DNA of 64,000 bases from positions 5,726,501 to 5,790,500 of the forward strand of contig NZ_AP024452.1 in NCBI RefSeq assembly GCF_016865485.1, in the 5' to 3' direction. This DNA is from Luteitalea sp. TBR-22. GTDB lineage: Bacteria > Acidobacteriota > Vicinamibacteria > Vicinamibacterales > Vicinamibacteraceae. Each line of letters begins with the position of its first letter. Position 1 is the stretch's first letter. The position numbers were made by a program, and so were the translations under genes. Of the stretch, positions 1 through 15,495 are shown in pieces. Below the pieces are notes generated by a model that was given only the letters and a program-made list of their open reading frames with translations, ran no database searches and was not told the DNA's origin.

Positions 1-2419
1 GCCCCACCCGCGTGATGTGCGAGCCGACGTAGGCCACCTCCACCGACCAGTGCTGGCCGATCGCGCGCTGCATCGACGCCTGCCACTGCTGGACGTATCC
101 GGACCCCAGATCGCGATCGACCGCGAACACCCCTTGCCCGAGGCCGGCATCCGGCGTCGGGCCGACGGGCACGATGGTCGGGCCGTCGGCGAGCGTGAAG
201 GCGGGAGCCAGGCCGTCGAGGGTCCGCTGCGACACCGTCTGCACGAACGGGAAGGCGGGCGTGGTGAACGGCGTGGTGATCCCGGCCTGCTCGATCCACA
301 CGAGGCCGTAGCCGGCGCGCACGGCCGTCCGATCGTCCAGCCGCCAGGAGAACCCGAGCCGGGGACCGAGGTTCAGGTGGTGCAGCCGACGCGCCGCGCG
401 GGGCTCGCCGTCACGCCCCAGGTACACGAGGCGCTCGCTCGCCAGATCGAACACGGCGGCCTGGTCGTCGCGTTCGACCGACGGGAAGTTGAGCGTGTAG
501 CGCACCCCCGCGCTGATCGTGAGCTTCGACGAGGGCCGCCAGTCGTCCTGGACGAAGTACTCCTGCACATGGGCGCGGTTGCGAATCGGCCTTCGCTGCA
601 GGTCGATCGAGAACTGCTGGACCTGCCCGAGCAGGAAGCTCGCCAGCGGAGCTCCCGTGCCGGCCAGGCCCGGCTGATCGGTGAACAGGCTCGTGAAGGT
701 GAACGCCCCCGTCGGCGAGGCGGGCTGAACCACGTCGAGGCGACTCCACCGCAGGTCGGCGCCTGCCTTGAACGTGTGGGCACGACTGGTCCAGGTGAGC
801 GTGTCGACCAGGTGCGTGACACCGGTTTCGAAATCCGTCGCCGTGCCCGGCGGCGAGCCGAGCGCCTGGTACCCCGCAATGGCGATCGACGGCACGGTGT
901 CGGCAAACGCCAGCGCGGGCAACCCGGGCAGGCCCAGTGCCTCGCCGGCGGTCGCCCCCAGCGCGACGGCGCGACGCTCCACGGCACGCCGCGTGTCGCC
1001 GATGCGGAGTTCGTGCAGCACGCGCGGGGAGAGCAAGGCCTGCCACGCCGAGGCGAAGGCCCGGACCCGCGTGTGCTGCGGGCCGAGCGTCCCGGTCGCC
1101 AGCCCGCTGCCGTCAGGGAGGGGACTCACGGGGGCGATCCGTTCGTCGAAGCGGACGAGCCGCACGAAGGCACGGTCGCCACGCACGCCCAGTCGCTGGT
1201 CGACGCGCAGGCCCGCGAGGTCGCTGTCGGTGCGCTCGTCGGCGGTTCGGCGGTAGTTGTTGGCCGTGCCGGGGGAAGTGGGCAGTGGAAACCGCTCCAG
1301 GAGCCTGCGCGCGACGGGATCGATGCGCGGCTCCGGAATCGCATTGCCGACGAACGGCTGCCGCACCGTGTCGCCATCGACGATCGTGGCCGTCGCAGGA
1401 TCGAAGATGGCCGCCACGCGGCCGGCCACGGGCTCGGTGAAGACACCCGAGCGCTGCAACGCCGTCGGAACCGTGGACACGGCGGTGCGTCCGATCGTCT
1501 GGCGCAGCCCTTCGTAGTCCGCGAAGACGAAGGTGCGACCGGCCGAGACGGGCCCGCCGAGCACGCCACCGAACTGCTGCCGCCGGAACCGCGGCCGCGC
1601 CCCGCTCCGGGGCGCGAAGGCGTTGCGGGCGTTGAGCGCCTCATGGCGCGCGAAGTCGAAGAGGCTGCCGCGCCAGTCAGCGCCGCCGGCCCGGGTGGTG
1701 AGGTTCACGACGCCGCCATTGAAGCGGCCGAACTCGGCGGGCGGGCTGTTGGTCTCGACGCGAAATTCCTCGATCGCATCGATGTTGGGCAGGTACGCCA
1801 CCTGCCCGGGCTCCGGCTGCAACACGGAGATGCCGTCGAACAGGTACTCGTTGGTGCGAGGGCGGCCGCCGTTGATGCGCGGGAGCGCCGCCCCCGGTGG
1901 CAGGGCGACGCCTGGCGCGAGGGCCACGAGCGAAAGGAAGGATCGGCCGTTGAGCGGCAGCGCCGTGGCCGTCGTCCGGTCAACGACGTGCCCGAGCCCC
2001 GGCGTGTCACGCAGGAGAGGCGGGGCGCTGGTCACCGTGACGACGTCGGCCACCGCGGCGGGGCGGGCGACGAGATCCACGCGTCGCGTCTCGCCGACCA
2101 CGACCGCCACCGACGACGACGCGGCAAGTCCCGCCACGGCGACGCGAACGGCATAGATGCCCGGCGACAACCCCGTGATCACCCACGCGCCCTCCTCATC
2201 GGCGCGCGTCACGCGCTGCCAACCGGCAGCCTCGGTCGCAACGACCTTGGCCTGCGCCACGCGGGCGCCCTGCTCGTCCACCACGAGACCGGCGAGCCCA
2301 CCCGTGCCGACCTGCGCTGCCGCCGTCGCGGCGGCCATCAGCAGCGCCCCCACCGCGGTCAACATGCGTCCGATCGTCGAGGCCGGCACGACCGGGATGC
2401 TAGGACGGCCACTGACCAT
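1..2419 (-). CDS. TonB-dependent receptor, Oar-like, with carboxypeptidase-regulatory domain (partial, C-terminus off window)
   Basis: An outer-membrane receptor of the kind that imports large or scarce substrates with TonB energy; the ligand cannot be read. The reverse frame is open from 2419 to the window edge, about 806 residues. Residues 19-36 make a signal peptide ending in an Ala run. About 40-125 is a CarboxypepD_reg-type fold (GGLAGLVVDEQGA, VITGLSPGIYAV). A plug region follows with LPLNGRSF and RINGGRPRTNEYLFDG, and then barrel strands with FVQDDWR and GPRLGFSW. I see no TonB box. ATG 2419 was chosen because it supplies basic residues before the hydrophobic core; ATG 2365 is possible. 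It is divergent from the HTH-TOBE gene 45 bp away, so shared control, perhaps of molybdate- or metal-related uptake, is an inference. This type of receptor is highly expanded in Acidobacteria. Confidence 0.85.
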   Translation of the reverse strand, partial: MVSGRPSIPVVPASTIGRMLTAVGALLMAAATAAAQVGTGGLAGLVVDEQGARVAQAKVVATEAAGWQRVTRADEEGAWVITGLSPGIYAVRVAVAGLAASSSVAVVVGETRRVDLVARPAAVADVVTVTSAPPLLRDTPGLGHVVDRTTATALPLNGRSFLSLVALAPGVALPPGAALPRINGGRPRTNEYLFDGISVLQPEPGQVAYLPNIDAIEEFRVETNSPPAEFGRFNGGVVNLTTRAGGADWRGSLFDFARHEALNARNAFAPRSGARPRFRRQQFGGVLGGPVSAGRTFVFADYEGLRQTIGRTAVSTVPTALQRSGVFTEPVAGRVAAIFDPATATIVDGDTVRQPFVGNAIPEPRIDPVARRLLERFPLPTSPGTANNYRRTADERTDSDLAGLRVDQRLGVRGDRAFVRLVRFDERIAPVSPLPDGSGLATGTLGPQHTRVRAFASAWQALLSPRVLHELRIGDTRRAVERRAVALGATAGEALGLPGLPALAFADTVPSIAIAGYQALGSPPGTATDFETGVTHLVDTLTWTSRAHTFKAGADLRWSRLDVVQPASPTGAFTFTSLFTDQPGLAGTGAPLASFLLGQVQQFSIDLQRRPIRNRAHVQEYFVQDDWRPSSKLTISAGVRYTLNFPSVERDDQAAVFDLASERLVYLGRDGEPRAARRLHHLNLGPRLGFSWRLDDRTAVRAGYGLVWIEQAGITTPFTTPAFPFVQTVSQRTLDGLAPAFTLADGPTIVPVGPTPDAGLGQGVFAVDRDLGSGYVQQWQASMQRAIGQHWSVEVAYVGSHITRVG

Positions 2420-2451
2420 CGATCAAATCGACTTGAATCGAATCAGTGCAG

Positions 2452-2457
2452 TACAGT
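2452..2457 (+). promoter_or_regulatory. Candidate -10 element, leaderless type
   Basis: TACAGT lies 7 nt before the ATG at 2465, and no Shine-Dalgarno sequence is visible. A TTGAAT at 2433-2438 is too close (13 nt) to be a normal -35 element. Confidence 0.4.
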
Positions 2458-2464
2458 GCTCGAC

Positions 2465-2941
2465 ATGAGTCAACTTTCTGCGCGGGCAGCGGCAGCTCGA
2501 CTTGGGGTGGCGTACTCCACGCTGAAGCGGTGGATTCACGCCGGTCATGTCAGGACGATGCGGACCAGCGGTGGTCATCACCGCATCGCCGAGGCGGAGC
2601 TCGAACGCCTTCTCGCGCAGCGTCCGTCGCTGTCGAAGGTCGCTGCGGGGCCTCGCGATGACGATGGGCTGGGCGGCTTGAGTGCGCGCAATCGCTTGCG
2701 CGGCGTGATCGAGGAGGTGCGCGTGGACGGGTTGCTGGCACAGGTGCGCCTGCGCGTCGCGGGACAACCCCTCACGGCGATCATCACCGCCGATGCGGTG
2801 CGGGCCCTCGGGCTGCGGCGGGGAGACGAGGCGCTGGCGGTCGTGAAGTCCACTGAGGTCATGGTGGCCAGGGCGCCCCGATCGGCCCCCGCTTCGCCCC
2901 CGGGGCGGCGTCCCCTTGTGCGCGAGCGAGCTCATGCGTAA
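2465..2941 (+). CDS. HTH (MerR/excisionase-like) regulator with C-terminal TOBE molybdate-binding domain
   Basis: A 158-residue protein with two parts. Residues 1-55 form a winged helix of the MerR/excisionase sort (SARAAAARLGVAYSTLKRW, then GGHHRI), typical for DNA binding. Residues about 75-140 match a TOBE/Mop domain (LRGVIEEVRVDGLLAQVRL, ITADAVRALGLRRGD, VVKSTEVMVAR), the fold that binds molybdate or tungstate in ModE, ModC and Mop proteins. The tail is a basic, Pro-rich extension. It is likely a one-component oxyanion sensor. It stands divergent from a TonB receptor, whose promoter it could control, and moaE, moaD and a mocA-like gene occur elsewhere in the window. The ATG at 2465 is the only start that keeps the complete HTH. 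Confidence 0.85.
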   Translation: MSQLSARAAAARLGVAYSTLKRWIHAGHVRTMRTSGGHHRIAEAELERLLAQRPSLSKVAAGPRDDDGLGGLSARNRLRGVIEEVRVDGLLAQVRLRVAGQPLTAIITADAVRALGLRRGDEALAVVKSTEVMVARAPRSAPASPPGRRPLVRERAHA

Positions 2942-3022
2942 GCTCGGCGTCGTCCGCTGCCCCATACCGTGAGGCGTGCCTCCCGTGCCGTGGTGGCACG
3001 CTGCACGCATCCGCACACAGGC

Positions 3023-4708
3023 ATGAACGACCCTCGCAGTCGCGAAGAGCGCGTCCAGCACTACCTCGAGCGCATCGTCGCGGCGGGCGACTTCCCTGCG
3101 TTCACGGAACGGCTCCACGAGGTGATCGACGTCCTCCGCAAGGAGGAGACGCCGATGCAGGCCCTGGCCAACGTCGTGCTGGGCGACTACAGCCTGACCC
3201 TGAAGGTCCTCAGGACGGTCAACTCCTTCCACTACAACCGGTCAGGGCGGCACATCCTGTCGGTCACCCAGGCCATGGTCGTGCTCGGGGTGGAGGCAGT
3301 GCGCGACCTGGCGGGCAGCCTCGTGCTGCTCGAGCACTACGCGCGCAAGGCGCCGGCGCTGAAGCAGTTGATGGCGCTGTCGATGCTCACCGCCAGCCAC
3401 GCGCGCCTGGCCGCCGAGCACGTGGGCATGCCGAAGCCGGAGCAGGCGCACCTGGCGGCGATGTTCCGCAACGTCGGCGAGGTGCTGCTGGCCTGTCACT
3501 CCCCCGAGGACTACGCGGCGGTGCTCGCCCACCTCAAGCAGCATCGAACGACGCTCGGTGCGGCCGCACTGGCGGTGTTGCACTTCCGCTTCGAGGACCT
3601 CGGCGAGGCCGCCTGTCGGCACTGGGGCCTCGGTGGCTTCGGTGGCGCGCCGGCGCCCGGCGGTCCGACGACCGACATCGAACGGCTGGTCGGCTTCGGC
3701 CACGACCTCACCAATGCCGTGTACAGGCAGGTGCCCACCGAGTCGCCGCAGACGCTGACGTTGATCCTGCAGCGATACGGACACGGCCTCGACCTGACCG
3801 CCGACACGCTGCAGGGGATCCTCCGCGAGGGCTGCGCCGAGACCAACGAGATGTTCGCGAGCCTGGGCCTCTCGACGACCGACCTCAGGTTGAGCCGACA
3901 GGTGGACGCGGCGATGGCGAGCCTGACGCCCGCCGACACGGCGGCCGACCCCGACCGGACCGACGCGCCACTCGACACGCCCGAGGTCGAGATCGCGCAC
4001 GGCCCGGACTCGCCCGTGGCCCGCCAGCAGCTGATCGGCGAACTGGAGTTGGCGGTCACCAGCGACGGGCACTTCGAGGTCAACGAGATCCTGCTCACGG
4101 TGCTCGAGGCGATCGTCCGCGCCGGGCCGTTCTCGCACGCCGCCTTCTGCCTGCTGAACGACACGCGGACCGAGCTGGTGGGTCGCTTCGGCCTCGGCGA
4201 GAGCGTCGAGGCGTTCGTCAAGCGGCTGCGCTTCCCGGTGACGCTCGGACCGCAAGGCCTCGCCGTGGGCGGGGCGATCCTGCGGCGACTCGACCTGTTC
4301 GCGTCACTGGCACGCAATCCGGGGGCCGACGAAGCGCGCCTGCTTGCGCTCCTGGGGGCGCAGACGGTGCTCGTGCTGCCGCTGGTCATCGAGAACCGTT
4401 CCGTCGGCGCGATTGTCACCGACCGTGCCGCGGCCGAGCCGCCCGATGCGGCCACGGTCACCTTCGTGGTGCACCTGCGCGACCTCGCCGTGCGCGCGAT
4501 GCGACGGGCGCGCGCCCAGCGCGAGGACGCCGCGAAGGTCACGGCGCAACTCGGGCCGGAGGCACGCAGGGATCTGGTGCTGCGCCTCCTCAAGGGCGAG
4601 TCGATCGAGGCCGTGAGCCGCGAGAGCCGCGTGCCGGTGAAGGACCTCGAGGCCTGGCGGCAGGCCTTCCTCGACGCGGCAACGCGCGCGTTCACGCAGG
4701 GGCAGTAG
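3023..4708 (+). CDS. HDOD-domain signalling protein with GAF-like domain
   Basis: A predicted cytoplasmic signalling protein of about 561 residues. Residues about 15-215 form an HDOD domain (VVLGDYSLTLKVLRTVNS, VTQAMVVLGVEAVRDLA, AAMFRNVGEVLLACH), the catalytically inactive relative of HD phosphohydrolases. About 335-500 look like a GAF domain with two short hydrophobic strands (AAFCLLND, VLVLPLVIENRSVGAIV). The last 50 residues resemble a short helix-turn-helix (ESIEAVSRESRVPVKDLEAW). HDOD proteins usually act in second-messenger, motility or stress signalling; the partner is unknown here. A GTG at 2969 would add 18 residues, but ATG 3023 fits the start of the domain better. The 3' end overlaps the convergent glycosyltransferase gene by 17 nt. 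Confidence 0.8.
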   Translation: MNDPRSREERVQHYLERIVAAGDFPAFTERLHEVIDVLRKEETPMQALANVVLGDYSLTLKVLRTVNSFHYNRSGRHILSVTQAMVVLGVEAVRDLAGSLVLLEHYARKAPALKQLMALSMLTASHARLAAEHVGMPKPEQAHLAAMFRNVGEVLLACHSPEDYAAVLAHLKQHRTTLGAAALAVLHFRFEDLGEAACRHWGLGGFGGAPAPGGPTTDIERLVGFGHDLTNAVYRQVPTESPQTLTLILQRYGHGLDLTADTLQGILREGCAETNEMFASLGLSTTDLRLSRQVDAAMASLTPADTAADPDRTDAPLDTPEVEIAHGPDSPVARQQLIGELELAVTSDGHFEVNEILLTVLEAIVRAGPFSHAAFCLLNDTRTELVGRFGLGESVEAFVKRLRFPVTLGPQGLAVGGAILRRLDLFASLARNPGADEARLLALLGAQTVLVLPLVIENRSVGAIVTDRAAAEPPDAATVTFVVHLRDLAVRAMRRARAQREDAAKVTAQLGPEARRDLVLRLLKGESIEAVSRESRVPVKDLEAWRQAFLDAATRAFTQGQ

Positions 4709-5948
4709 GACCAGGGCCGAGGTGCGGCAGCACCTCGTGTGGCCAGGTCTCGTGCCAGCGCAGCGCGCCAGCGGCACGTGCCCCGGCGCCCAGGGCGTCG
4801 AGGGTGGTCTGGTCGGCATCGCGCACCACGCGCAAGGCGGCCACCAACGACGGAACGTCGGTGAACGTCAGGCCGTTGACGCCGGGCTGCACGAGTTCGG
4901 CCAGGCACGCCCCGTAATCGAGTGCCACGACGGGCACGCCCGCACCGAAGAGATCCATCACCTTCATGGGAAGGTCGAGCTTCGACGTGGAGTCGTGCAG
5001 GCTCAGGCCGGCGTCGGCCGATCCCACCGCTGACGGGTAGTCGTCGGCCTCGAGCCAGGCCGTGGCGAGCCGCACGCGTGACAGGCCGAGCGCGGCGACG
5101 CGCGCCTCGAACGCCGCACGCAAGGGCCCCGTACCGGTCGCGACGACGGCCAACCCGCGGATGCCGGCGCGCCACTCGGCGTCGAGCGACTGCGCCGCCT
5201 CGAGGAGCATCCCGAAGTCCTCGTCGGCCGTCCAACTCGTGGGACTGACGACCAGCCGCCACGCTCCATCGGCTTGGGCCACCCCCGCGGCCTCGAAGAG
5301 ACGCGCACGCATGTGCGCGCGCCGCTCCGGATCGGGTGCGCGGAACACCTGGCGCGGCCTGTCCCGGAACACCGAGCCCGAGAGGCTCCACTCAGCGCCG
5401 ACGTGCCGCGCCATGGCCTCCGACACGAAGAAGTTGTGATCGGCACGCCGCCCTGCCCAGCGCTCGACGGTTGCCGCCGCCCTGATCAGCGGATGTCGCG
5501 GCCCCAGCCGCAGCGCCAGCATCGAGGCCGTGAAGTTGTGCCAGTCGATCACGAGGCGGCTGCCGCGCAGCCGCGCCGCGAGCCACGCGACGGGAAGCGT
5601 CGGGATGCCCGGCGGGTTCTGCACGAGGACGACATCGGGGGCACGCCCCGACAGCAGCACACGGAGCAGGCGACCGGTGAGCCCCACGCCGCGCCAACCG
5701 GCCCGCAACGCCCACCCGAGGCGCGACGCGGGACGCGGCGCTCGTTCGTCGTCGTCGAGGGCGCACACCACCAGCGCGGGCACCCGAGCCTCGGCCGGCA
5801 GGGTAGACGATGCGTAGCCGACCAGATCGACGTGCCACCCATGCGCGACAAGCGACAGCGCGTGGTTCAGCATGCGCGGACTGCGCCCGATGTCCCCGAG
5901 GACGACGACGATGGCGCGCGGGTGGGCGCGTGCCTGGGGCGTGGGCAT
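4692..5948 (-). CDS. ALG1-like (GT33 type) beta-mannosyltransferase
   Basis: A 418-residue GT-B glycosyltransferase that follows the eukaryotic ALG1 pattern, the enzyme adding the first mannose to dolichyl-PP-GlcNAc2, along its length. Visible blocks are VLGDIGRSPRM (16-26), VQNPPGIP (109-116), LVIDWHNF (132-139), SPTSWTADEDF (235-245), GTGPLR (272-277), WLEADDYP (298-305) and LDLPMKVMDLFG (324-335). These are the signature blocks of ALG1 as I recall the human sequence, and ordinary bacterial GT4 enzymes do not have them. Unlike eukaryotic ALG1 there is no N-terminal membrane anchor. It is divergent from MurG-like, WecA-like and STT3 genes, which supports a role in building a lipid-linked glycan. 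Donor and acceptor are inferred; GDP-mannose would be expected by homology. Confidence 0.85.
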   Translation of the reverse strand: MPTPQARAHPRAIVVVLGDIGRSPRMLNHALSLVAHGWHVDLVGYASSTLPAEARVPALVVCALDDDERAPRPASRLGWALRAGWRGVGLTGRLLRVLLSGRAPDVVLVQNPPGIPTLPVAWLAARLRGSRLVIDWHNFTASMLALRLGPRHPLIRAAATVERWAGRRADHNFFVSEAMARHVGAEWSLSGSVFRDRPRQVFRAPDPERRAHMRARLFEAAGVAQADGAWRLVVSPTSWTADEDFGMLLEAAQSLDAEWRAGIRGLAVVATGTGPLRAAFEARVAALGLSRVRLATAWLEADDYPSAVGSADAGLSLHDSTSKLDLPMKVMDLFGAGVPVVALDYGACLAELVQPGVNGLTFTDVPSLVAALRVVRDADQTTLDALGAGARAAGALRWHETWPHEVLPHLGPGPTAPA

Positions 5949-5992
5949 GGCGGGCGCGCCGCACGCGTAGGCATCCGGTGTCCTATCTGGCG

Positions 5993-6011
5993 GCGTGGTA
6001 GGCTACCACGC
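5993..6011. promoter_or_regulatory. Perfect 8-bp inverted repeat in the divergent glycosylation promoter region
   Basis: GCGTGGTAGGCTACCACGC has 8-bp arms around a 3-nt centre. It also contains TAGGCT on the plus strand (5999-6004, about 16 nt before the GTG at 6021) and TAGCCT on the minus strand, so it may be a two-way -10 core, an operator, or both. No gene on either side has a good Shine-Dalgarno sequence. Confidence 0.4.
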
Positions 6012-6020
6012 ACCACCATC

Positions 6021-7121
6021 GTGACCACCATCCGGCGCATCGCGTTCGCCGTCGGCGACACCGCAGGACACGTGATGCCGGCGCTCGCGGTCGCCGAGGC
6101 GTGGACCGCGATCGCGCCCATCGACGTCCGCATCTTCGCGTCGCCCGGCGGCCCGGCCGCCGGCCTGGCCGCGCAGGCTGGTCACGCCGTCGAGATGGTG
6201 CCGGCCTCGGCGCTGGCGCGCGTCGGACTGCCCGGTCGCGTCGCCGCCCTGGCGCGCGTGGCGCGCGGCGTCCCTCGGGCGCGCGCCCGGCTGAGGGCGC
6301 ATGGTTCGCGGCTGGTGATCGGCACGGGCGGGTACGGTTCGGGTCCCGTCCTGCTCGCGGCGCGCAGCCTGGGCCTGCCCACGGCCCTCATCGAGCCCAA
6401 TGCCGTGCCCGGCCTGGCCAACCGCCTGCTGCGCCGCTGGGTGCAGCGGGCCTTCGTCAGCGCGGAGGCACCGCGCGCGTACTTCGGCGCCGACCGGGCG
6501 ATCGTCACGGGCACGCCCGTCAGTCCGTCGCTGGCGGCGCGACTCGCGGCCGGGCGTGTGGCGCCCGCCGGCGAGGTGCGCGTGCTCGTGATGGGAGCGT
6601 CGCGAGGCGAGCACTTTCTCGGCGAGGAGATGCCGTCGTTCCTCGCGGCGGTCCAGGCACGGGCCGGTCCGCGGCTGCGGGTGCGTCACCAGGCGGGTTC
6701 GCTCGACGCGGCCCGGCTCGCGGCCGCGTATGCCCAGGCAGGCGTCGAGGCGACCATCGAGCCGTTCCTGGCCGACGTGGCGGGCGCGCTGGGCGAGGCC
6801 GACGTGGTGGTCACGCGTGGCGGCGCGGTCACCCTCGCCGAGCTCGCGCTCGCCGGCCTGCCGGCGCTGATCGTGCCGCTGGCCGACGCAGCCGAGGATC
6901 ACCAGGCGCGCAACGCCGAGGCCCATGCGGCTCACGCGGCGGCGTTGTGGGCGCGGGAAACCGCGTGGTCGCGCGAGGCGCTCGCGGGTGCCTTCGCCGA
7001 ACTCATCGCGTCGCCGACCCGATGGCAGGCCATGTCGGAGGCGGCGCGCGCGCTGGCGCGGCCAGGCGCGGCGGCCGAGGTCGTGCGGCACTGCGAGTCG
7101 TGGATGGCCGGCCGATGGTGA
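6021..7121 (+). CDS. MurG/ALG13-14-like UDP-GlcNAc transferase (GT28)
   Basis: A 366-residue GT-B enzyme. Conserved GT28 features are the N-terminal glycine motif GDTAGHVMPALA (GGTGGH in true MurG), GTGGYGSGP, EPNAVPGLANRLL, a GASRGEHFLGEE block, and the C-terminal donor site VVTRGGAVTLAELALAGLP with DHQARNAEAH. In MurG this fold adds GlcNAc to an undecaprenyl-linked sugar. In eukaryotes ALG13/ALG14 is the corresponding two-subunit enzyme adding the second GlcNAc to dolichyl-PP-GlcNAc. The neighbours (WecA-like, STT3, ALG1-like) favour the second role. No mur genes adjoin it, but I cannot exclude that it is the cell's MurG. The GTG start at 6021 is the start that gives the family's normal N-terminus; the stop overlaps the next gene. 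Confidence 0.8.
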   Translation: MTTIRRIAFAVGDTAGHVMPALAVAEAWTAIAPIDVRIFASPGGPAAGLAAQAGHAVEMVPASALARVGLPGRVAALARVARGVPRARARLRAHGSRLVIGTGGYGSGPVLLAARSLGLPTALIEPNAVPGLANRLLRRWVQRAFVSAEAPRAYFGADRAIVTGTPVSPSLAARLAAGRVAPAGEVRVLVMGASRGEHFLGEEMPSFLAAVQARAGPRLRVRHQAGSLDAARLAAAYAQAGVEATIEPFLADVAGALGEADVVVTRGGAVTLAELALAGLPALIVPLADAAEDHQARNAEAHAAHAAALWARETAWSREALAGAFAELIASPTRWQAMSEAARALARPGAAAEVVRHCESWMAGRW

Positions 7122-8116
7122 CCACCTACCTCCTCGCGTTCCTCGTCGCGCTGGCGGTGTCGGCGGCGATCACGCCGCTGGTGGAACGCACCGCCGTGCG
7201 CGTCGACATCCTCGACCGCCCCGGCGGCCGCAAGCTTCACGCCTCGCCCGTGCCGCGCGTCGGCGGCGTCGGCGTGGCGCTCGGCCTGGCTGCCGCGCTC
7301 GGGGCGTGCGTGATGTTCGACGCGCACGCCGGCATCGGCACGGCGGGCCTCGAGGGCCTCCTGCCGACGATCAGCGGCGCCCTGCTGATCTTCGCGGTCG
7401 GCCTGTGGGACGACATCGACCCGCTCTCTCCCGCCCTCAAGCTGGTCGCGCAGGTCGCGGCGGCGGCCATCGTCGTCGGTGCGGGCATCGGGATCACGCG
7501 CGTCACCGTGCTGGGCACCACGTACGACCTCGGCGCCGCGGGGCCCCTGCTGACCGCGTGCTGGATCGTCGGCATCACCAACGCATTCAACCTGCTCGAC
7601 GGACTCGACGGGCTGGCCGGCGGCCTGGTGACGATCGCCGGCGCGACCTGCGCCACCGTGCTGATCGCGCGCGGCGAGCACGTCGGCGCGCGACTCCTGG
7701 TCGCCCTGGTCGGCGCGACGGTCGGCTTCCTCGCCTACAACCTGCATCCGGCCCGCATCTTCCTCGGCGACGCGGGCAGCCTGCTGGCCGGCTTCCTGCT
7801 GTCGGTCACCGCCATCACCGGGCAGCAGAAGGGCGCGACCACCCTGGCTGCCGGCGTCCCGCTGCTGATCTTCGCGCTGCCGATTGCCGACACCGGACTG
7901 GCGATCCTGCGCCGCGTCGTGCTCGGGCAGCGCGATTCGGCGCCAGGCATGCGGAGCCGCCTGCGCGCGCTCGGTCGCGTCGTCCGGCCCGACAGCGACC
8001 ACCTGCACCACCGCCTGCGCAAGGCCGGGCTGCCGCCGACGCAGACGGTGATCGTCCTGTACCTGCTCGCGTGCCTCTTCTCGGCGACGGCGCTCTACTT
8101 CATGGAGGTCCCGTGA
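7115..8116 (+). CDS. WecA/TagO-like undecaprenyl-phosphate GlcNAc-1-phosphate transferase
   Basis: A polytopic membrane enzyme of 333 residues (about ten hydrophobic segments) of the MraY/WecA family, which moves a sugar-1-phosphate from a UDP-sugar to a polyprenyl phosphate and so starts a lipid-linked glycan. Motifs are DRPGGRKLHASPVPRVGG near residue 35, GLWDDI, NAFNLLDGLDGLAGG (about 155-170), HPARIFLGDAGS and the cytoplasmic HLHHRLRKAGL near the C-terminus. The phenylalanine/leucine form of the NAFNLLDG block and the HLHHRL loop fit WecA/TagO/ALG7-type enzymes better than MraY. ATG 7115 overlaps the upstream stop; GTG 7118 would give an exact GTGA overlap. It is translationally coupled on both sides. 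GlcNAc-1-P as the substrate is inferred. Confidence 0.85.
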   Translation: MVTTYLLAFLVALAVSAAITPLVERTAVRVDILDRPGGRKLHASPVPRVGGVGVALGLAAALGACVMFDAHAGIGTAGLEGLLPTISGALLIFAVGLWDDIDPLSPALKLVAQVAAAAIVVGAGIGITRVTVLGTTYDLGAAGPLLTACWIVGITNAFNLLDGLDGLAGGLVTIAGATCATVLIARGEHVGARLLVALVGATVGFLAYNLHPARIFLGDAGSLLAGFLLSVTAITGQQKGATTLAAGVPLLIFALPIADTGLAILRRVVLGQRDSAPGMRSRLRALGRVVRPDSDHLHHRLRKAGLPPTQTVIVLYLLACLFSATALYFMEVP

Positions 8117-10356
8117 CCACGCCCGATCCGGCAGCGATGCCGGACGCGCCAACGCCAGAGGCGCCGCAGGTCGCGCATGCGCCGGCCTGGACCCTGGCCC
8201 TCGTGATCGTGGCGTTCCTCATCAGGCTGCTGCCACCCTGGCTGGCGGTCTTCGGCGAGGACCACGTCTCGTTCCTCGAGTCGGACGCCTGGTACCACAT
8301 GCGGCTCGTGGACGCGCTGCTGCACGACTTCCCGTGGCGCATCTGGCATGACGCCTACCTGGTCCACCCGGGAGGCGAGCCGGTCAATGCCGGCCCGATG
8401 TTCGACTGGCTGGTGGCGCTGCCGGCGTGGATCCTGGGGCTCGGCGCGCCCACGGCGCGCTTGACCGATGTGGTCGGCGCGGTGGTGCCACCCGTGATCG
8501 GCGCGCTGACGGTGGTCCCCGTCGTCGGCCTCGGCGCACGGCTGTTCTCGATGCGGGCCGGCCTGTGGGCGGGGCTGCTGTTTGCCGCGATGCCGGGACA
8601 GACGCTGCAGCGGTCGCTGCTCGGCTTCACCGACCACCACTGCGCGGAGACGCTGTTCAGCACGACGGCCCTGCTGTTCCTGGTGAGGGGCCTGGTGGAC
8701 TCGACGCACCGCCGACGCGACGCATTCCTCGCGGGCGGAGCCCTCGGGTTCTACCTGCTGACCTGGGGCGGCGGCGTGTTCATCGTGGTGCTCGTCGTCG
8801 CATGGGCGATCCTGGCGATGGCGGCGCGCATCTGGCGAAGCGCGGGCCTGGACGACATCACGACCGTCGTCACGCCGATGCTGGGCGTCGCCGGCGTGAT
8901 GGTGCTGCCGTGGGCGCGAACGCGGCCGCACTTCGCCTACCAGCTCGGCGCGATCGCCGGCGGCCTGCTCGTGCTCGTGGCACTGCGCGCGGCAGCCGCG
9001 CAGGCCAGCCGACGCGGCTGGAGCCGCGGCCGGTTGCTGGCGGCGCTCGGCGGGGCGGCGCTGCTCGCGATCGGCGTCGCGGCGCTGGCCATGGGCGACA
9101 GCCTCGGATCGCTGCGCGGCGACGTCGCCCGGGTGTCGCCGTTCCGCACCGACACGGTGGTGACCGAGGCGCGACCGCTGCTGGCATCACCGCGCCTGAT
9201 GAAACCTGTGCCCCTGTGGCGGGAGTTCGGCATCGGCACCGTGCTGGCGGCGCTCGGCGCCGGCGTGCTGGCCGGCGCCGCATCACCGGCCACCGGCGCT
9301 GCCCGCGGCCTGTTCGCGCTGTGGACGGTCGTGGCCCTTGGCGCAACCGTGGGCCAGGTGCGCTTCACGTACTACCTCGGGGTGAACGTCGCGTTGCTCT
9401 CGGGCGTCGCCCTCGAGCGCCTGCTCGCGACGACCGCGCGCCGGCCATCGCTGCGCCTCGCCGGTGCGGCCATCGCGGTCGCCGCCATCGTCGGGCCCGG
9501 TGCGCCGGAGTTACTGGCCATGCGCTCGTCGGTGGCCTGGCCCGACAGGAACTGGGTCGATGCCCTCACCTGGATGCAGGGCAACACGCCGGAGCCGTTC
9601 GGCGACCCCGCGGCATACCTGGCCAGCCACGTCGACAGGCCCTCGGCGTACGGCGTGCTGGCCTGGTGGGACTCCGGCTACTGGATCACGCGCATCGCCC
9701 GCCGGGTGCCGGTGACCAACCCGCGGCAGACCGCGATGCAGGACGTGGCGCGCTTCCTCGTGGCCACCGATGTCGCGGAGGCACGCCACGTGCTCGATCG
9801 CCTTGGCGCCCGGTACGTGATCGTCGACGCCCAGCTGCAGGTGCGGCTTCCGGGCGAGCGCCGGTTGCCGGGATTCTTCTCGGCGATCGAGCGGACCGCC
9901 GGTGGCGATGGCACGCCGCGCTGCGAGTCCTTCGTCGATCGGCGCAACGGCATGCGGACGGACCTGTGGTGCGCGCCCGAGTACCACCAGGCGATGGCGA
10001 TGCGGCTGTACCTGCACGGGGCCCGAGCCGTGACCGACGTGACGCCGGTGCGCGTGGTGCGGTTCCGGCGACGCCGCGGCGCCAGGGAGGTGCAGCACTC
10101 GTGGGACTTCCCCGATCTCGCGACGGCACGGTCGTTCGCCGCCGCGCAGGACGATCCCACGACGATCCGGGTGGTCTGCCCGGATCTCCTGCGAAGTTGC
10201 GTGCCGCTGCCGGCGCTGCCGGAGTTCGTGTCGCGGTACCGGTCGCTTGGCACCGAGGGCGCGGCGTTGAACGGACCCGCGCTCGTGCACGTGTTCGAGT
10301 ACCGGCCCGACATCGCACCGTCGGTACCGGCCAACGCGCCGACGACGCGGCACTAA
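8113..10356 (+). CDS. STT3/AglB-type oligosaccharyltransferase
   Basis: A 747-residue membrane protein that should transfer a lipid-linked glycan to asparagine at the outer face of the membrane. It has an N-terminal helix (about 27-47), then ESDAWYHMR with the putative metal-binding Asp58, GFTDHHCAE (Asp174, His175, His176, Glu179) in the form typical of archaeal AglB, and about a dozen hydrophobic segments to residue 470. A soluble C-terminal domain follows with the diagnostic WWDSGYW motif (518-524) and ITRIARRVPVTNP after it. I do not see a clear DK or MI motif further on. The GTG start at 8113 overlaps the previous stop as GTGA and has GGAGG at 8104-8108. Together with the three preceding glycan-assembly genes it suggests N-linked protein glycosylation. 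Confidence 0.9.
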   Translation: MTTPDPAAMPDAPTPEAPQVAHAPAWTLALVIVAFLIRLLPPWLAVFGEDHVSFLESDAWYHMRLVDALLHDFPWRIWHDAYLVHPGGEPVNAGPMFDWLVALPAWILGLGAPTARLTDVVGAVVPPVIGALTVVPVVGLGARLFSMRAGLWAGLLFAAMPGQTLQRSLLGFTDHHCAETLFSTTALLFLVRGLVDSTHRRRDAFLAGGALGFYLLTWGGGVFIVVLVVAWAILAMAARIWRSAGLDDITTVVTPMLGVAGVMVLPWARTRPHFAYQLGAIAGGLLVLVALRAAAAQASRRGWSRGRLLAALGGAALLAIGVAALAMGDSLGSLRGDVARVSPFRTDTVVTEARPLLASPRLMKPVPLWREFGIGTVLAALGAGVLAGAASPATGAARGLFALWTVVALGATVGQVRFTYYLGVNVALLSGVALERLLATTARRPSLRLAGAAIAVAAIVGPGAPELLAMRSSVAWPDRNWVDALTWMQGNTPEPFGDPAAYLASHVDRPSAYGVLAWWDSGYWITRIARRVPVTNPRQTAMQDVARFLVATDVAEARHVLDRLGARYVIVDAQLQVRLPGERRLPGFFSAIERTAGGDGTPRCESFVDRRNGMRTDLWCAPEYHQAMAMRLYLHGARAVTDVTPVRVVRFRRRRGAREVQHSWDFPDLATARSFAAAQDDPTTIRVVCPDLLRSCVPLPALPEFVSRYRSLGTEGAALNGPALVHVFEYRPDIAPSVPANAPTTRH

Positions 10357-10377
10357 CCCGATCCCCGATCCCCGACC
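10357..10377. repeat. Heptanucleotide tandem repeat, unit CCCGATC
   Basis: Three tandem 7-bp units (CCCGATC, CCCGATC, CCCGACC) fill the gap between the convergent STT3 and rsmH stop codons. Confidence 0.7.
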
Positions 10378-11304
10378 CTAGGCTTCGCGCCCCCTGATGG
10401 CCCACCGCAGCTTGGCCGACGCGGCGCGCCGGTTGGCGAACGTCTCGGCCCGGGCCGAGCGGACCACGGTGCGTGCGACGCGTGCATAGGTGCCGCGGCG
10501 GTGCCCCTCGCGGAACGCCTGCTTCACGCGGCGATCCTCGCCCGAGTGGAACGTGAGCACCACGACGCGCCCGCCCGGCGCGAGACACCGCGGCAAGGCT
10601 GCCAGCAAGTCGTCGAGCGCGCCGAGCTCGTCGTTGACCATGATGCGCAGCGCCTGGAAGGTGCGGCGCACCGACATCTTGATCTCGGCTTTGGGCAATG
10701 CGGGCAGGACGGCCGCCAGCGCCTGGCGGACCTGGCGCTCGAGTGCGTGGGTCGTGTCCGGCCGGGTGGCCGTGAGCCGCTCCGCGATCACGGCGGCGTG
10801 GGGCTCGTCGGCAAAGCGCGTGAGCACATCGGCGAGCGCGGGCGCCTCGAGGTGCGCGAGGAGATCGGCGGCCGGCGCGCCGGTCGTCGGGTCGAGCCGC
10901 AGGTCGAGCGGCCCCGGAAGCTTGTAACTGAACCCGCGCGCTGCGGTGTCGTGCTGCATGCCCGACACGCCGAGGTCAACGAGGATGGCATCGGCTCGCC
11001 CGTGGCCGGCCTCGGCCAGCACGTCAGGGAGGTGGCGGAAACTCGCGTGCTGCAGGGTGAGGATGTCGGGGCCGTGCCCCTCGGCACGCAGTCGTGCCTC
11101 GGTGCGGGGCAGCTCGATCGCATCGACGTCGAGCCCGAGCAGGTGGCCCCCCGGAGTCAGGCGCGCGAGGATCTCGCGCGCGTGGCCACCGCCGCCGATG
11201 GTGCAGTCGACCACGAAGGCGCCTGGCTCGGGCCGCAGGTGGCCGAGGACCTCGGCCACCATGATCGGCCGGTGCGACGCTACTTCGGGCGGACCATCGA
11301 CCAT
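10378..11304 (-). CDS. rsmH: 16S rRNA (cytosine1402-N4)-methyltransferase RsmH
   Basis: A 308-residue SAM methyltransferase that modifies C1402 in the decoding centre of 16S rRNA. Family marks are HRPIMVAEVL at the N-terminus, VVDCTIGGGGHA (SAM loop), LVDLGVSGMQHD followed by RGFSYKLPGPLDLRLD, the inserted helical domain, FQALRIMVNDELGAL, and VVLTFHSGEDRRVK near the end. It is the usual length. It normally sits beside mraZ and ftsL in the cell-wall cluster; here it stands alone between STT3 and a small secreted protein. The start at 11304 lies inside the 3' end of the upstream gene (25-nt overlap), so coupling is likely; ATG 11262 would remove the conserved HRP block. Confidence 0.88.
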   Translation of the reverse strand: MVDGPPEVASHRPIMVAEVLGHLRPEPGAFVVDCTIGGGGHAREILARLTPGGHLLGLDVDAIELPRTEARLRAEGHGPDILTLQHASFRHLPDVLAEAGHGRADAILVDLGVSGMQHDTAARGFSYKLPGPLDLRLDPTTGAPAADLLAHLEAPALADVLTRFADEPHAAVIAERLTATRPDTTHALERQVRQALAAVLPALPKAEIKMSVRRTFQALRIMVNDELGALDDLLAALPRCLAPGGRVVVLTFHSGEDRRVKQAFREGHRRGTYARVARTVVRSARAETFANRRAASAKLRWAIRGREA

Positions 11305-11645
11305 TCGACCGTGTTGCCCATGGCCGTGGCGTCGCCGGTGATCGCCTCGCCCTTGACCGTGCCCTTCATCTCGTACGCCATCGTGCCGCCCGAGGGACGC
11401 TCGCGCGTGATCACGAAAGCAATCGCATCGCCCTTGATGGTGCCGGACTCGATGGGCCACACACGGCCGCCCCCGAGGTCGAAACTGCCCTTCAGCGTCT
11501 CGCCCTCGACCTTGAGATCCACCTTGGCCTCGACGGTCCCCATCGGGCTGTTCATGGTGAACTTCCAGGCCCCGGCCGCTGGCGACTCGGCGCCGAGCAC
11601 GGTGGTAAGGGCGGCAATCAGCAGGGCGGTCAGGATGGTGCGCAT
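11280..11645 (-). CDS. Small secreted protein of unknown function
   Basis: A 121-residue protein with a clear signal peptide (MRTILTALLIAALTTVLGAES). The mature part is about 100 residues of alternating beta strands built around W-FTMNSPMG, LKVEGETLKGSFDLGG, IKGDAIAFVI and MKGTVKGEAITGDA, which looks like a small beta-barrel or lipocalin-like domain. A similar stretch is seen attached to or next to secreted hydrolases in Acidobacteria, from memory. ATG 11645 follows a good GGAGGA Shine-Dalgarno sequence and is better than the upstream in-frame ATG at 11669. It is co-directional with rsmH, whose start it contains, and with the DUF1080 gene upstream. No catalytic residues can be named. Confidence 0.7.
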   Translation of the reverse strand: MRTILTALLIAALTTVLGAESPAAGAWKFTMNSPMGTVEAKVDLKVEGETLKGSFDLGGGRVWPIESGTIKGDAIAFVITRERPSGGTMAYEMKGTVKGEAITGDATAMGNTVEWSMVRPK

Positions 11646-11699
11646 GTCGAGGTCCTCCGAGCGGCGCACGATGTGGCGCCCGCCTCTGGGACGCGATCC

Positions 11700-12866
11700 T
11701 CAGGGCAGGCGTTTCACGAAGACGTTGGCGAACTCCACCCGGCGGCCGGCCGGCACGATTGCGATGCGCCCCTGCGCGGGCAGTGCCTCCTGCGGCGCAT
11801 TGTCGACGAGCGCCTGCCCGTTGAGGTGCGCGGTCAGGCGCGTGCCCTGCACCCGCTGCACGAGGCGATTCCACTGCCCGGGCTTCTGCGCCGCGCCGTC
11901 CTGGCGCGGCACGACGATGGCCCGGACGCCCGGGAGCATGCGCGCGGTGGGCGCCGGCCCCGGTTGCAGCGCGGCGGGCTCGTCCTCGTCCACCCACCGC
12001 CAGTCGGCGATCACCTCGACGTCGCCGAAGGTTTCGGCAGAGAGCAGGGGCAGCGGGCGGCCTGTGGGGTCGGCCTCGTGGCTCAACGTCCAGTCCTTCG
12101 CCTTCCAGTACAGCGCACGGTCGGCCGGCACAATCCAGCCAGACAGGGTCTTGCCGTCGTAGAGGGCGCGATGCCCCTGGAACTCGGTGGCCACCTGCGC
12201 GGGGGTGATCGTGCCGGAGGGCGGCAGCTCGCGGATGCGGATGTTGCGGAAACGCACGGGCGCGCCCTCCGACTCCAGCGCGATGTAGCCCTTGCGCGGC
12301 GAGATGTCGTAGCCACCCGACACCTCCTTGCCGTTGACGGCGAGCTTGAGCGTTCCGTTGCGCGCCGTGATCCGGTAGTGGTTCCACTCGCCCGGCCCCT
12401 TGGCGCGGCGCTCGCTGGGCAGGCTGCGCATCGCGCCCTTGGGGTGCGGCCGGTCTGGCGTGAGGACGGCGCCGTGGATCGCGAAGACGTCGCCGTGACT
12501 GGTGTAGGTGTCGGAGTTGCGCCCGTCGAGCACCTGCACCTCGATGGCGCGCAGGAAGGGCTGGCCGCGCGCCGGCAGCGCGTCGGCCCACACGAAGACG
12601 CCGGCGTTGCCCATCGGCTGTTCGTGGAGGTACTCGAGCTCGAGCACGAAGTTCTCGTACATCCGCTCGGTGCGGATCTCGCAGATCGGCACGCCGGTGA
12701 CGGCGATGACCCCGTCGCGCACCGAGAAGGTGTCGGGGGCGCAGTTGATGTTCACCCACCCCGACAGGGTCCGTCCGTCGAACAGCGGGACGAACGGCTC
12801 GTCCTGGGGAGCGGCCGCGCCCATCGACAGGACGGCAGCCATCGTGACGGCGACAGGCATGCGCAT
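11700..12866 (-). CDS. Secreted protein with two DUF1080 (3-keto-disaccharide hydrolase-type) domains
   Basis: A 388-residue exported protein. After a signal peptide (residues 1-21) come two concanavalin-like beta-sandwich domains of the DUF1080 family: about 25-205 (PLFDGRTLSGWV, FVLELEYLHE, NAGVFVWAD, GEWNHYRI, VRFRNIRIRELP) and about 215-388 (LYDGKTLSGWIV, PGQWNRLVQRVQG, RVEFANVFVKRLP). Members act on 3-keto-glucosides or bind polysaccharides, and they are very numerous in Acidobacteria and Planctomycetes. Which sugar is bound is unknown. The second domain is more divergent and may have a supporting role. A TAGACT hexamer 7 nt before the start suggests a leaderless transcript. A secreted carbohydrate esterase gene is divergent from it. 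Confidence 0.8.
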   Translation of the reverse strand: MRMPVAVTMAAVLSMGAAAPQDEPFVPLFDGRTLSGWVNINCAPDTFSVRDGVIAVTGVPICEIRTERMYENFVLELEYLHEQPMGNAGVFVWADALPARGQPFLRAIEVQVLDGRNSDTYTSHGDVFAIHGAVLTPDRPHPKGAMRSLPSERRAKGPGEWNHYRITARNGTLKLAVNGKEVSGGYDISPRKGYIALESEGAPVRFRNIRIRELPPSGTITPAQVATEFQGHRALYDGKTLSGWIVPADRALYWKAKDWTLSHEADPTGRPLPLLSAETFGDVEVIADWRWVDEDEPAALQPGPAPTARMLPGVRAIVVPRQDGAAQKPGQWNRLVQRVQGTRLTAHLNGQALVDNAPQEALPAQGRIAIVPAGRRVEFANVFVKRLP

Positions 12867-12873
12867 GTCGCGA

Positions 12874-12879
12874 AGTCTA
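12874..12879 (-). promoter_or_regulatory. Candidate -10 element TAGACT, leaderless type
   Basis: TAGACT on the minus strand ends 7 nt before the ATG at 12866; no Shine-Dalgarno sequence is seen. Confidence 0.45.
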
Positions 12880-12947
12880 CAGGAAGGACCCGGCCGGGCC
12901 GGGGCCACTCGCCGCCGCCGTCGAGCCTCGACGCGGGGCAGGTCGGC

Positions 12948-12953
12948 GATACT
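12948..12953 (+). promoter_or_regulatory. Candidate -10 element GATACT, leaderless type
   Basis: GATACT ends 7 nt before the ATG at 12961. Confidence 0.35.
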
Positions 12954-12960
12954 TCCCCCG

Positions 12961-13764
12961 ATGCGCCAATCGCTGCTCACGCTGCTGGCCCTGTCGGGCC
13001 TCGCCATGTCCATCGCTGGCCAGGCGCCGGCACCGCCACCACCGGCACGCGAGGCGTTCCACCTGTTCCTGCTCGCCGGGCAGTCGAACATGGCCGGGCG
13101 CGGCAAGGTCGAGGCCAGCGACACCGTGCCGAGTCCGGGCATCCTCATGTTCGATCGCGGGCGCACGTGGGTGCCGGCGGTCGACCCGATGCACTTCGAC
13201 AAGCCGGTCGCCGGCGTGGGGCTCGGGCGCCCCTTCGCCCTGCGCGTGCTCGAGGCCAACCCCGGGGTCACCATCGGCCTCATCCCGACGGCCGTCGGCG
13301 GCACGCGCATCGACCTCTGGCAGCCGGGCGCGTTCGACGACGCCACGAAGAGCCATCCCTGGGACGACGCCATCGCGCGCGCCACCGCGGCGCTCCCGAG
13401 CGGCACGCTGAAGGCCATCCTGTGGCACCAGGGTGAATCGGACGCGACACCGGAGCTCGCGCCGGCCTACGAGGCAAAACTGCACGCGCTGATCGCGCGC
13501 TTCCGCACCACGCTGCGCGCGCCGGAGGTGCCCTTCATCGTCGGTCAGTTGGGCCAGTACCCGGATGTCCCCTGGGACGATGCCCGCCGCATCGTCGACG
13601 CGGCGCACCGATCGCTGCCCGCCAGGGTCGCCCATACCGCGTTCGTCGCCAGCGACGGCCTGGTGCACGGCGGCGACCGCATCCACTTCGACCGCGCCTC
13701 GTTGCAGGAGCTCGGCAAGCGGTACGCCGACGCCTACGCGCGCCTGGTTGCCCCGGCGCGCTGA
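12961..13764 (+). CDS. Secreted SGNH/SASA-type carbohydrate esterase
   Basis: A 267-residue exported esterase of the sialate O-acetylesterase (SASA, DUF303, CE6-like) group that removes acetyl groups from sugars. After a signal peptide (about 1-21) the catalytic serine lies in LLAGQSNMAG (Ser42); block III is TAVGGTRID, block with HQGESD is in the middle, and the Asp/His pair of the triad is in GGDRIHFD near the C-terminus. All expected residues are present and the length is normal for a single-domain enzyme. It probably works with the nearby DUF1080 protein on plant or microbial polysaccharides, which is inference from proximity only. Confidence 0.85.
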   Translation: MRQSLLTLLALSGLAMSIAGQAPAPPPPAREAFHLFLLAGQSNMAGRGKVEASDTVPSPGILMFDRGRTWVPAVDPMHFDKPVAGVGLGRPFALRVLEANPGVTIGLIPTAVGGTRIDLWQPGAFDDATKSHPWDDAIARATAALPSGTLKAILWHQGESDATPELAPAYEAKLHALIARFRTTLRAPEVPFIVGQLGQYPDVPWDDARRIVDAAHRSLPARVAHTAFVASDGLVHGGDRIHFDRASLQELGKRYADAYARLVAPAR

Positions 13765-13796
13765 TCGCCAACCGCCAGGACGCCGCAGCCGTGACA

Positions 13797-13824
13797 CGTC
13801 AAACGTCAGACGTCAGACGTCAGC
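13797..13824. repeat. Heptanucleotide tandem repeat, unit CGTCAGA
   Basis: Four 7-bp units (CGTCAAA, CGTCAGA, CGTCAGA, CGTCAGC) lie directly upstream of the -10-like TACCCT of the peptidase gene. The same unit recurs at 31018-31073 and, in part, at 39576-39596. Confidence 0.75.
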
Positions 13825-13826
13825 GT

Positions 13827-13832
13827 TACCCT
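13827..13832 (+). promoter_or_regulatory. Candidate -10 element TACCCT, leaderless type
   Basis: TACCCT ends 7 nt before the ATG at 13840 and directly follows a heptamer array. Confidence 0.4.
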
Positions 13833-13839
13833 TGTCACC

Positions 13840-15495
13840 ATGCCGAGCTCGACCTCCCTGCGCGTCGCCCGCTGGACGGCGGTCCTGTCCCTCGCCCTGT
13901 CACCCGGCCTCATCGCGCAGGACGTTCCCCTTCCCGACGCGGTGCGGGCTGCGGCCGACGGCATCACCGCGGCCTCGCTGGCGCGCGACCTCGAGTTCCT
14001 CGCCTCGGATGCCCTTCGCGGGCGCGACACGGGATCGCCGGGCTTCGATGCGGCCGCCGCGGACATCGAAGGGCGCCTGCGGGCGGCGGGCCTGACGCCC
14101 GCCGGCGACGAGGGCACCTATCGACAGCATTACGAGTTGCAGGAACTCCACGCGGGAACGAACGCGACAGTGACCATCGGCGGCCGTCCCTTCGTGTTCG
14201 GCAACGACTTCGTCCTGCGATCGTTTGCCGGGCCGATCAAGGGGCACCTGCCCGTCGTCTACGTCGGCCACGGATGGCGGGCGCCGTCGCGCGGCATCGA
14301 CCCGTGGAAGGACGTGGACGTGCGCGACGCCCTCGTGCTCGCCCACGGACCCCGCGCGATGCCGAAGGACGCACCCATCACGCAGATCGGCCGCGTTGCC
14401 GTCGGCGCGTCGTCGGTGTTCGCGGAGGCGAAGGCGCGAGGCGCGCTCGGCGTGCTGTTGCTGACGCCGTCGGACCCGAAGGCCGACTGGGCCGCGATGC
14501 GCGGCGCCAACGTGGTGCGCCGGGAGCTCGTGCCGGCGGTGCCGTCGGCGTACGCGGCCGTGCCGGTGACCTCGCTGCTGCTCGGGCGCCCCGCAATCGA
14601 TGCGCTGATGGCAGGCGAGGCCATCGATGGCGCCACGCTGCTGGCCCGAGGCGAGGCTGGTGACTACCCGCGCGCATTCCGCCTCCGCAAGCGCATCGCC
14701 GTCCACGTGCCGCTGGTGGGGGTGGCCTCGGAGCACCCGTACAACCTCGTGGCCCGCATCGAGGGCAGCGACCCGGTCCTCAAGGACCAGGTGATCACGA
14801 TCGCGGCGCATCTCGATGGCGCCGTCGGCACCCGGACCATCGACGGGGACCCGATCTACAACGCCGCCGACGACAATGCCACCGGGAGCGCCGGCCTGCT
14901 CGCGATTGCCGAGCACCTGATGAAGGGGCCGCGCCCGCGACGCACGATCGTCCTGCTCTGGGACAGTGGCGAGGAACGCGGCCTCTGGGGCACGCGACGG
15001 TTCGTGCACCAGCCGCCCGTGCCGCTCGACCGCATCGTCGCGCATGTCAACGTCGACATGATCGGCGCCACTCGGGCACCCGGACGCGCCGACGCCAACT
15101 CGGTGGACGCCACCGGCCCGCACGAGGTGTTCCTGATCGGACCCGGCGCGCTGAGCCCGAGCACCGATGCCCTGTTGCAGCGCGTCAACGCGGGGTACCT
15201 GAAGATGACCTTCAACCGGCGCGATGACCGGCCCGAGAGCGAGTTCTTCTACCCGCGCACCGACGCCGGACCGTACCTCGAACGCGGCATCCTCACCATC
15301 GGGTTCACCACGGGTTCGCATCCGCGGTACCACCTGCCTGCCGACGAGGCGAAGTATCTCGACCCGGCCAAGATGGAAGCGGTGACGCGCACGGTCTTCG
15401 CGAGCCTGTGGGCGCTCGCCAACAGCCCGGAACGCCCGCGGATCGAGACCGCCATCCCCGCCACGGTGCTGCGCGCCCCGGCGCCGGAACACTGA
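13840..15495 (+). CDS. Exported M28 family zinc aminopeptidase with PA insert
   Basis: A 551-residue exported metallopeptidase. Signal peptide about 1-26; residues about 140-255 are a protease-associated (PA) type insert; the catalytic domain has the M28 zinc ligands in AAHLDG, NAADDNATGSAGLL, WDSGEERGLWGT (general base and ligand Glu-Glu), VNVDMIG and HPRYHLPADE near the end. The first ligand motif reads HLDG where HxD is the norm, so it is retained. Such enzymes remove N-terminal amino acids from peptides in the periplasm. It is a single gene on its strand, followed by two convergent minus-strand genes. The start fits the signal peptide, and a heptamer array and a TACCCT element precede it. 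Confidence 0.88.
   Translation: MPSSTSLRVARWTAVLSLALSPGLIAQDVPLPDAVRAAADGITAASLARDLEFLASDALRGRDTGSPGFDAAAADIEGRLRAAGLTPAGDEGTYRQHYELQELHAGTNATVTIGGRPFVFGNDFVLRSFAGPIKGHLPVVYVGHGWRAPSRGIDPWKDVDVRDALVLAHGPRAMPKDAPITQIGRVAVGASSVFAEAKARGALGVLLLTPSDPKADWAAMRGANVVRRELVPAVPSAYAAVPVTSLLLGRPAIDALMAGEAIDGATLLARGEAGDYPRAFRLRKRIAVHVPLVGVASEHPYNLVARIEGSDPVLKDQVITIAAHLDGAVGTRTIDGDPIYNAADDNATGSAGLLAIAEHLMKGPRPRRTIVLLWDSGEERGLWGTRRFVHQPPVPLDRIVAHVNVDMIGATRAPGRADANSVDATGPHEVFLIGPGALSPSTDALLQRVNAGYLKMTFNRRDDRPESEFFYPRTDAGPYLERGILTIGFTTGSHPRYHLPADEAKYLDPAKMEAVTRTVFASLWALANSPERPRIETAIPATVLRAPAPEH

Follow-up and report, generated by a model that had tools for sequence, protein, structure and literature searches.

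A candidate N-glycosylation gene cluster with an ALG1-like glycosyltransferase in the acidobacterium Luteitalea sp. TBR-22

Does an acidobacterium build a lipid-linked glycan by steps like those of the eukaryotic ALG pathway and transfer it to protein? The question is raised by four genes in a 64,000-nucleotide stretch of the Luteitalea sp. TBR-22 genome (the window, positions 5726501–5790500 of a single 6.47 Mb contig). A preliminary description, made from the sequence alone, had recognized in them a GlcNAc (N-acetylglucosamine)-1-phosphate transferase, a MurG-like GlcNAc transferase, an ALG1-like mannosyltransferase and an STT3/AglB oligosaccharyltransferase. Open reading frames (ORFs) and profile searches confirm all four genes, in essentially the families proposed. 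We consider it likely that they serve N-linked protein glycosylation on an undecaprenol carrier, with the machinery split over two loci. The layout within the window is as follows.

4692..5948, minus strand: ALG1/GT33-like glycosyltransferase, 418 amino acids, ATG at 5948 (ORF, profiles, relatives, AlphaFold2 model)
5949..6020, no strand: divergent intergenic region, 72 base pairs, between the ALG1-like start and the MurG-like start
6021..7121, plus strand: MurG paralogue (GT28-type), 366 amino acids, GTG 6021 to TGA 7121 (profile, tree)
7115..8116, plus strand: WecA-type polyprenyl-phosphate N-acetylhexosamine-1-phosphate transferase, 333 amino acids, ATG 7115, TGA 8116 (profile)
8113..10356, plus strand: STT3/AglB-type oligosaccharyltransferase, 747 amino acids, GTG 8113 (profiles, alignment, structure model)

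Three of the genes are linked by overlaps, as had been described: the MurG-like and WecA genes share 7 bases, and the WecA stop and STT3 start share 4.

The oligosaccharyltransferase and its partners in the window

From its alignment and model, the STT3 protein looks like an intact AglB-type oligosaccharyltransferase. It scores 82.3 bits against PF02516 (cut-off 24.5), of which it is the only match in the host genome, and 74.6 bits against the AglB core PF22627 (cut-off 27). It aligns with A. fulgidus AglB (E 4e-47), and its structure model (predicted local distance difference test, pLDDT, 81) matches, best first, AglB, human/yeast STT3 and PglB in the PDB. Against the archaeal STT3 subfamily TIGR04154 it reaches 416.8 bits, under the curated cut-off of 450, and is not assigned to that subfamily; the cut-off is passed by L008, L009 and L010, and also by L090 (483 bits) and L092 (498 bits). 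At 1e-3 this profile found matches in 143 of 396 genomes sampled from the window's phylum, three of them over cut-off. We rejected the weak matches as oligosaccharyltransferases; most of those shown lie below about 35 bits and cover short stretches.

The catalytic residues appear to be in place. In a 14-row alignment that includes the window protein, D174, E352, R417 and W518-W519-D520-G522 are invariant and D58, R64, H175, H176 and E179 nearly so; D58, D174-H175-H176, E352 and the WWDSG segment (518–522) are conserved and aligned with AglB. An excerpt of PMC8342417 names the motif classes of these enzymes as two DXD, TIXE and WWDYG. Our motif check covered the DXD-type, TIXE Glu and WWDYG classes, and on our own reading of the alignment the conserved residues would represent all three. 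An STT3 homologue stripped of its catalytic residues, the weakness foreseen in the preliminary description, is not what the alignment reveals.

The WecA-type protein, the predicted initiating enzyme of the lipid-linked glycan, scores 133 bits against PF00953 (cut-off 27) and 120.6 bits against the enterobacterial type TIGR02380, under its cut-off of 326. The best profile for the MurG paralogue, the predicted second-GlcNAc transferase, is MurG (TIGR01133) at 210.9 bits, under the equivalog cut-off of 250.25. It is not the sole MurG of the genome, the other weakness that had been foreseen: a second scores 300 bits, lies at 5914191 and is 38% identical to it. A PF00953 protein 3 kb from the 300-bit MurG, at 5918197, is taken by position to be MraY; a third member of that family lies at 4642513. 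In a tree, the window MurG-like protein and nine MurG-like proteins from other ALG1-like loci form one clade (100/100), apart from 16 other MurGs. This ten-member clade spans several phyla and its nine members from outside the window all adjoin an ALG1-like gene, MurG-like proteins having been sought only around ALG1-like loci and in 16 genomes (15 ALG1-positive plus G319). The window protein carries unusual GxTAGH and xE(P/A/C)N motifs; we rejected the idea that this pair signals a new acceptor, since some other MurGs (L146, L147 and L150) deviate too.

Recurrence of the gene set and the proposed pathway

Two narrow peptide patterns, run against genome contigs from 84,980 species, found 21 ALG1-like loci, all under bacterial titles; such patterns would miss divergent members, and absence from archaea does not follow from the scan. 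Relatives occur in Acidobacteriota, Rokubacteria, Myxococcota-type and other bacterial genomes, and in viral contigs 46 stretches fitted the pattern and none was a relative. At E 1e-20 an ALG1-like protein was found in 15 of the 396 sampled genomes of the window's phylum, in 2 of 95 from the phylum of the Rokubacteria locus L092, and in 3/395 and 3/377 of the phylum samples around L084 and L089. The distribution is rare and patchy.

At 15 of the 21 loci the ALG1-like gene has nearby at least one of five partners: MurG-like, WecA, STT3, an extra glycosyltransferase (GTp) or a flippase-type ATP-binding cassette (ABC) protein. MurG-like genes are present at nine (L078, L080, L082, L084, L086, L089, L090, L092 and L095), WecA at nine (L081, L083, L085, L086, L087, L088, L090, L092 and L094), STT3 at six (L078, L080, L084, L090, L092 and L094), GTp at 12 and ABC at 11 (ten at 764 bits or more, L086 at only 194). 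The seeds of the ABC and GTp profiles came from the 21 loci themselves, and the independent test is provided by four loci found later, which have ABC in all four, MurG-like, GTp and STT3 in three each and WecA in one; their STT3 matches, at 131–172 bits, are partly aligned. One of these, L176, holds WecA, MurG-like, ALG1-like, GTp and ABC together with a weakly matching STT3. All of ABC, GTp, WecA, MurG-like, ALG1-like, STT3 and a further family, GTq, stand together in L090 and L092; GTq occurs in seven of the loci displayed (L038, L046, the window, L075–L095, L103 and L121–L132). L084 has ALG1-like, MurG-like, GTp, GTq and ABC beside its oligosaccharyltransferase (PF02516, 80 bits; PglB core PF21436, 24.3 bits, cut-off 23), with no WecA in the stretch examined. 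Profile scores are identical for L046 (genome G379, of the same class as the window genome) and L094 (JAIBCN010000120.1, a Vicinamibacteria bacterium).

Two loci show unusual gene structures. At L038 one 984-residue ORF (406–3357, plus strand) comprises a WecA-type transferase and an ABC exporter, a possible fusion of initiating enzyme and flippase; the locus also has ALG1-like and STT3 genes. At L090 WecA is split over two ORFs (5002–5852, minus strand) in an otherwise complete cassette, perhaps through a frameshift or an error of assembly.

The preliminary description had found no flippase or later transferase in the cluster. This holds at those coordinates, but both families lie together elsewhere in the genome, at 193013–195962 (locus B).

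Genome 193013–194776: ABC exporter, locus B (profile match to the L087 cassette ABC)
Genome 194844–195962: GTp glycosyltransferase, locus B (profile match to the L087 GTp)

The L087 ABC protein finds the exporter at 468 bits, the next match in the host genome scoring 179; the L087 GTp has a single match, at 376 bits, which adjoins that exporter in convergent order, as in L087. The exporter scores 113 bits for ABC_tran, over cut-off, and 24.8 for ABC_membrane (cut-off 28), with 240 bits for PglK and 276 for MsbA, both far under the cut-offs of 1000 and 602. On these matches, locus B could supply a flippase and an extending transferase.

We propose that WecA makes undecaprenyl diphosphate-linked GlcNAc (Und-PP-GlcNAc), to which the MurG paralogue would attach a second GlcNAc and the ALG1-like enzyme the first hexose, probably mannose (Man). 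The locus B glycosyltransferase would then extend the glycan, the locus B ABC transporter would flip the lipid-linked product, and the AglB-type STT3 would move it to the asparagine of N-x-S/T in exported proteins. The pathway role of the gene set is fairly well supported; the substrates, step order, sugars, sequon, undecaprenol carrier and service of locus B to the window genes are what we infer.

ALG1-like and AglB genes co-occur. Strong AglB (290 bits, a cut chosen after the scores were seen) is present in 9/15 ALG1-positive and 1/381 ALG1-negative genomes (Fisher p 8e-14), and AglB at 100 bits in 9/15 and 25/381 (p 3e-7), in tests on genomes that are not independent and with two candidates scored per genome for AglB and four for ALG1-like. 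These features of the tests count against N-glycosylation by this gene set, as do several other points. The proposal rests on gene and sequence comparison, and sequon counts in the window proteins were uninformative. Strong AglB was not found in 6 of the 15 ALG1-positive genomes of the phylum sample; a search for STT3 at E 1e-15, covering the genomes of 17 of the 21 loci, found it in 11 and not in 6. Neither an ALG1-like protein nor a strong AglB was found in the same-genus genomes G125 and G362. At six of the 21 loci (L075, L076, L077, L079, L091 and L093) all five partners are missing from the stretch examined, which is short for some (5.1 kb for L079). Among these six, neighbours were annotated for L076 only (5892–14173), where the ALG1-like gene lies without a cassette partner among molybdopterin dehydrogenase, aldehyde dehydrogenase and amidohydrolase genes. 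One clade of the ALG1-like tree (10 rows, 99/97) is a group without cassette or detected STT3. Finally, a second MurG was not found at E 1e-20 in 13 of the 15 ALG1-positive genomes, nor in G319.

This last result bears on the nature of the glycan. Because a second MurG went undetected in these genomes, a chitobiose step is no constant feature of ALG1-like clusters, the ALG1-like enzyme may have a substrate other than chitobiose in some of them, and GlcNAc2-Man is a glycan that we infer. It is quite possible that the system glycosylates protein with something else, the ALG1-like enzyme adding hexose directly to GlcNAc-PP-Und, or to another disaccharide, and the MurG paralogue being optional. 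Clusters of ALG1-like, WecA, GTp and ABC genes (L125, L126, L127 and L129) do occur in genomes without a detected second MurG, and GTp is found both with and without a MurG-like gene. The single MurG-like clade, spread over several phyla and adjoining ALG1-like genes within the scope searched, counts against this alternative. For the window, assembly in parallel with GlcNAc-GlcNAc-Man is our best reading of the early steps.

Kinship of the ALG1-like protein

By alignment, the gene on the opposite strand stands remarkably close to eukaryotic ALG1. Pfam recognizes only generic GT4-type domains in its product, which is 37–46% identical to 21 bacterial relatives; the blocks GD(L/I)GRSPRM, QNPP, DWHN, SPTSWTxDEDF and SSSGLDLPMK are common to those aligned. 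All yeast Alg1 comparisons, and the yeast row of the tree, use a provisional yeast sequence, not one taken from a database. This provisional Alg1 matches the window protein at 231 bits, with 35% identity over 384 amino acids, a kinship stronger than could be shown from the sequence at first. It scores 358 bits against the bacterial ALG1-like profile and, among 1032 gene calls, matched the 33 ALG1-like ones (some from duplicated contigs) and nothing else. Similarity that is near full-length and far above that to other GT4-type enzymes places the protein in GT33/ALG1, as judged with the provisional sequence. Its AlphaFold2 model (pLDDT 92) finds GT-B enzymes as best PDB folds (10–18% identity in the rows listed), and a PDB sequence search with the protein and its 22-row profile returned no chain at 1e-3. 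We predict that the substrate of the enzyme is lipid-linked GlcNAc or GlcNAc2, to which it would attach the first hexose, probably mannose.

According to an excerpt of Lombard (2016, PMC4973528), it could not be established which prokaryotic proteins are nearest to Alg1, and Alg1 may have been an innovation of eukaryotes. A bacterial family close to Alg1 and clustered with an oligosaccharyltransferase makes the origin of Alg1 testable by rooted phylogeny and enzyme assay. Entry of the gene into bacteria from eukaryotes, in place of an old bacterial family, seems unlikely: the provisional yeast Alg1 does fall beside the window protein, weakly (62/54) and with the program's warning that two long branches meet, but one eukaryotic row cannot root this unrooted tree, and the bacterial members are diverse, occur in several phyla and have a common cassette. 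With support of 62/54 we draw no statement on the direction of transfer. It is likewise a doubtful idea that several bacterial lineages build Man-GlcNAc-GlcNAc on undecaprenol for N-glycosylation and that eukaryotic ALG1 descends from this bacterial cassette enzyme.

Other functions, known systems and neighbouring features

WecA, GT4 and MsbA-type ABC proteins are also found in O-antigen and exopolysaccharide pathways, and one ALG1-like subgroup is without a detected STT3. The cassette might accordingly make a surface polysaccharide or glycolipid, with STT3 incidental or acting on a non-protein acceptor. We regard this as improbable, with no search made for polymerases, ligases or Wzx-type flippases, as the end of WecA overlaps the beginning of STT3 in the window, STT3 recurs within the cassette at other loci, and its WWD-G and TIXE-like residues are conserved. 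That the MurG-like gene is an ordinary peptidoglycan duplicate is very improbable: the protein is of bacterial MurG type (TIGR01133, 211 bits) and its deviating motifs are no proof of a new acceptor, but the genome has a separate 300-bit MurG, the gene overlaps WecA, and the protein groups with those of other ALG1-like loci.

The gene set invites comparison with the eukaryotic ALG pathway (ALG7, ALG13/14, ALG1 and STT3), which it had been said to mirror. The series of enzyme types is alike, and the window ALG1-like protein aligns almost end to end with the provisional yeast Alg1; as a general statement the claim is too broad, since WecA and the MurG paralogue are bacterial by profile and the oligosaccharyltransferase is of archaeal (AglB) type, so that the ALG1-like gene alone resembles its eukaryotic counterpart. 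The flippase would be an ABC protein and the carrier presumably undecaprenol. Campylobacter-type Pgl systems (PglK flippase, PglB oligosaccharyltransferase) have in common the bacterial setting; the locus B exporter matches PglK and MsbA, far under both cut-offs. Their start is PglC-type, whereas that of the window is WecA-type, and the window STT3 model is nearer AglB than PglB. TIGR04154-type AglB is approached by the window protein at 417 bits and reached by those of L090 and L092, in bacterial hosts and another gene neighbourhood. Sulfolobus acidocaldarius (AglH, Agl24 and AglB) has a chitobiose-type start followed by AglB, according to an excerpt of PMC8993221, which describes Agl24 as a near relative of Alg14/13 with only a remote kinship to MurG; the window protein, in contrast, is of MurG type. 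Archaea lack Alg1, according to the excerpt of Lombard (2016, PMC4973528).

Our searches of the open-access literature, judged by titles and abstract openings and with subscription papers, preprints and CAZy outside their scope, found no paper that dealt with acidobacterial N-glycosylation or with GT33 in bacteria. If the proposal is true, N-glycosylation reaches bacterial groups without a report in that literature, possibly with a eukaryote-like glycan core useful for glycoengineering.

The four genes have a G+C content of 0.73–0.77, near the window value of 0.71. Promoters of both units are presumed to lie in the 72-base-pair divergent region; a promoter and terminator scan found none, and this region has no sigma-70-like match. 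A PHROGs search of two window proteins gave no match. An HDOD-GAF protein gene (about 3020–4708, plus strand) overlaps the ALG1-like gene by 17 bases, 3' end to 3' end (4692–4708). The sole tRNA found in the window is a selenocysteine tRNA gene (anticodon tca) at 49251–49346 on the minus strand.

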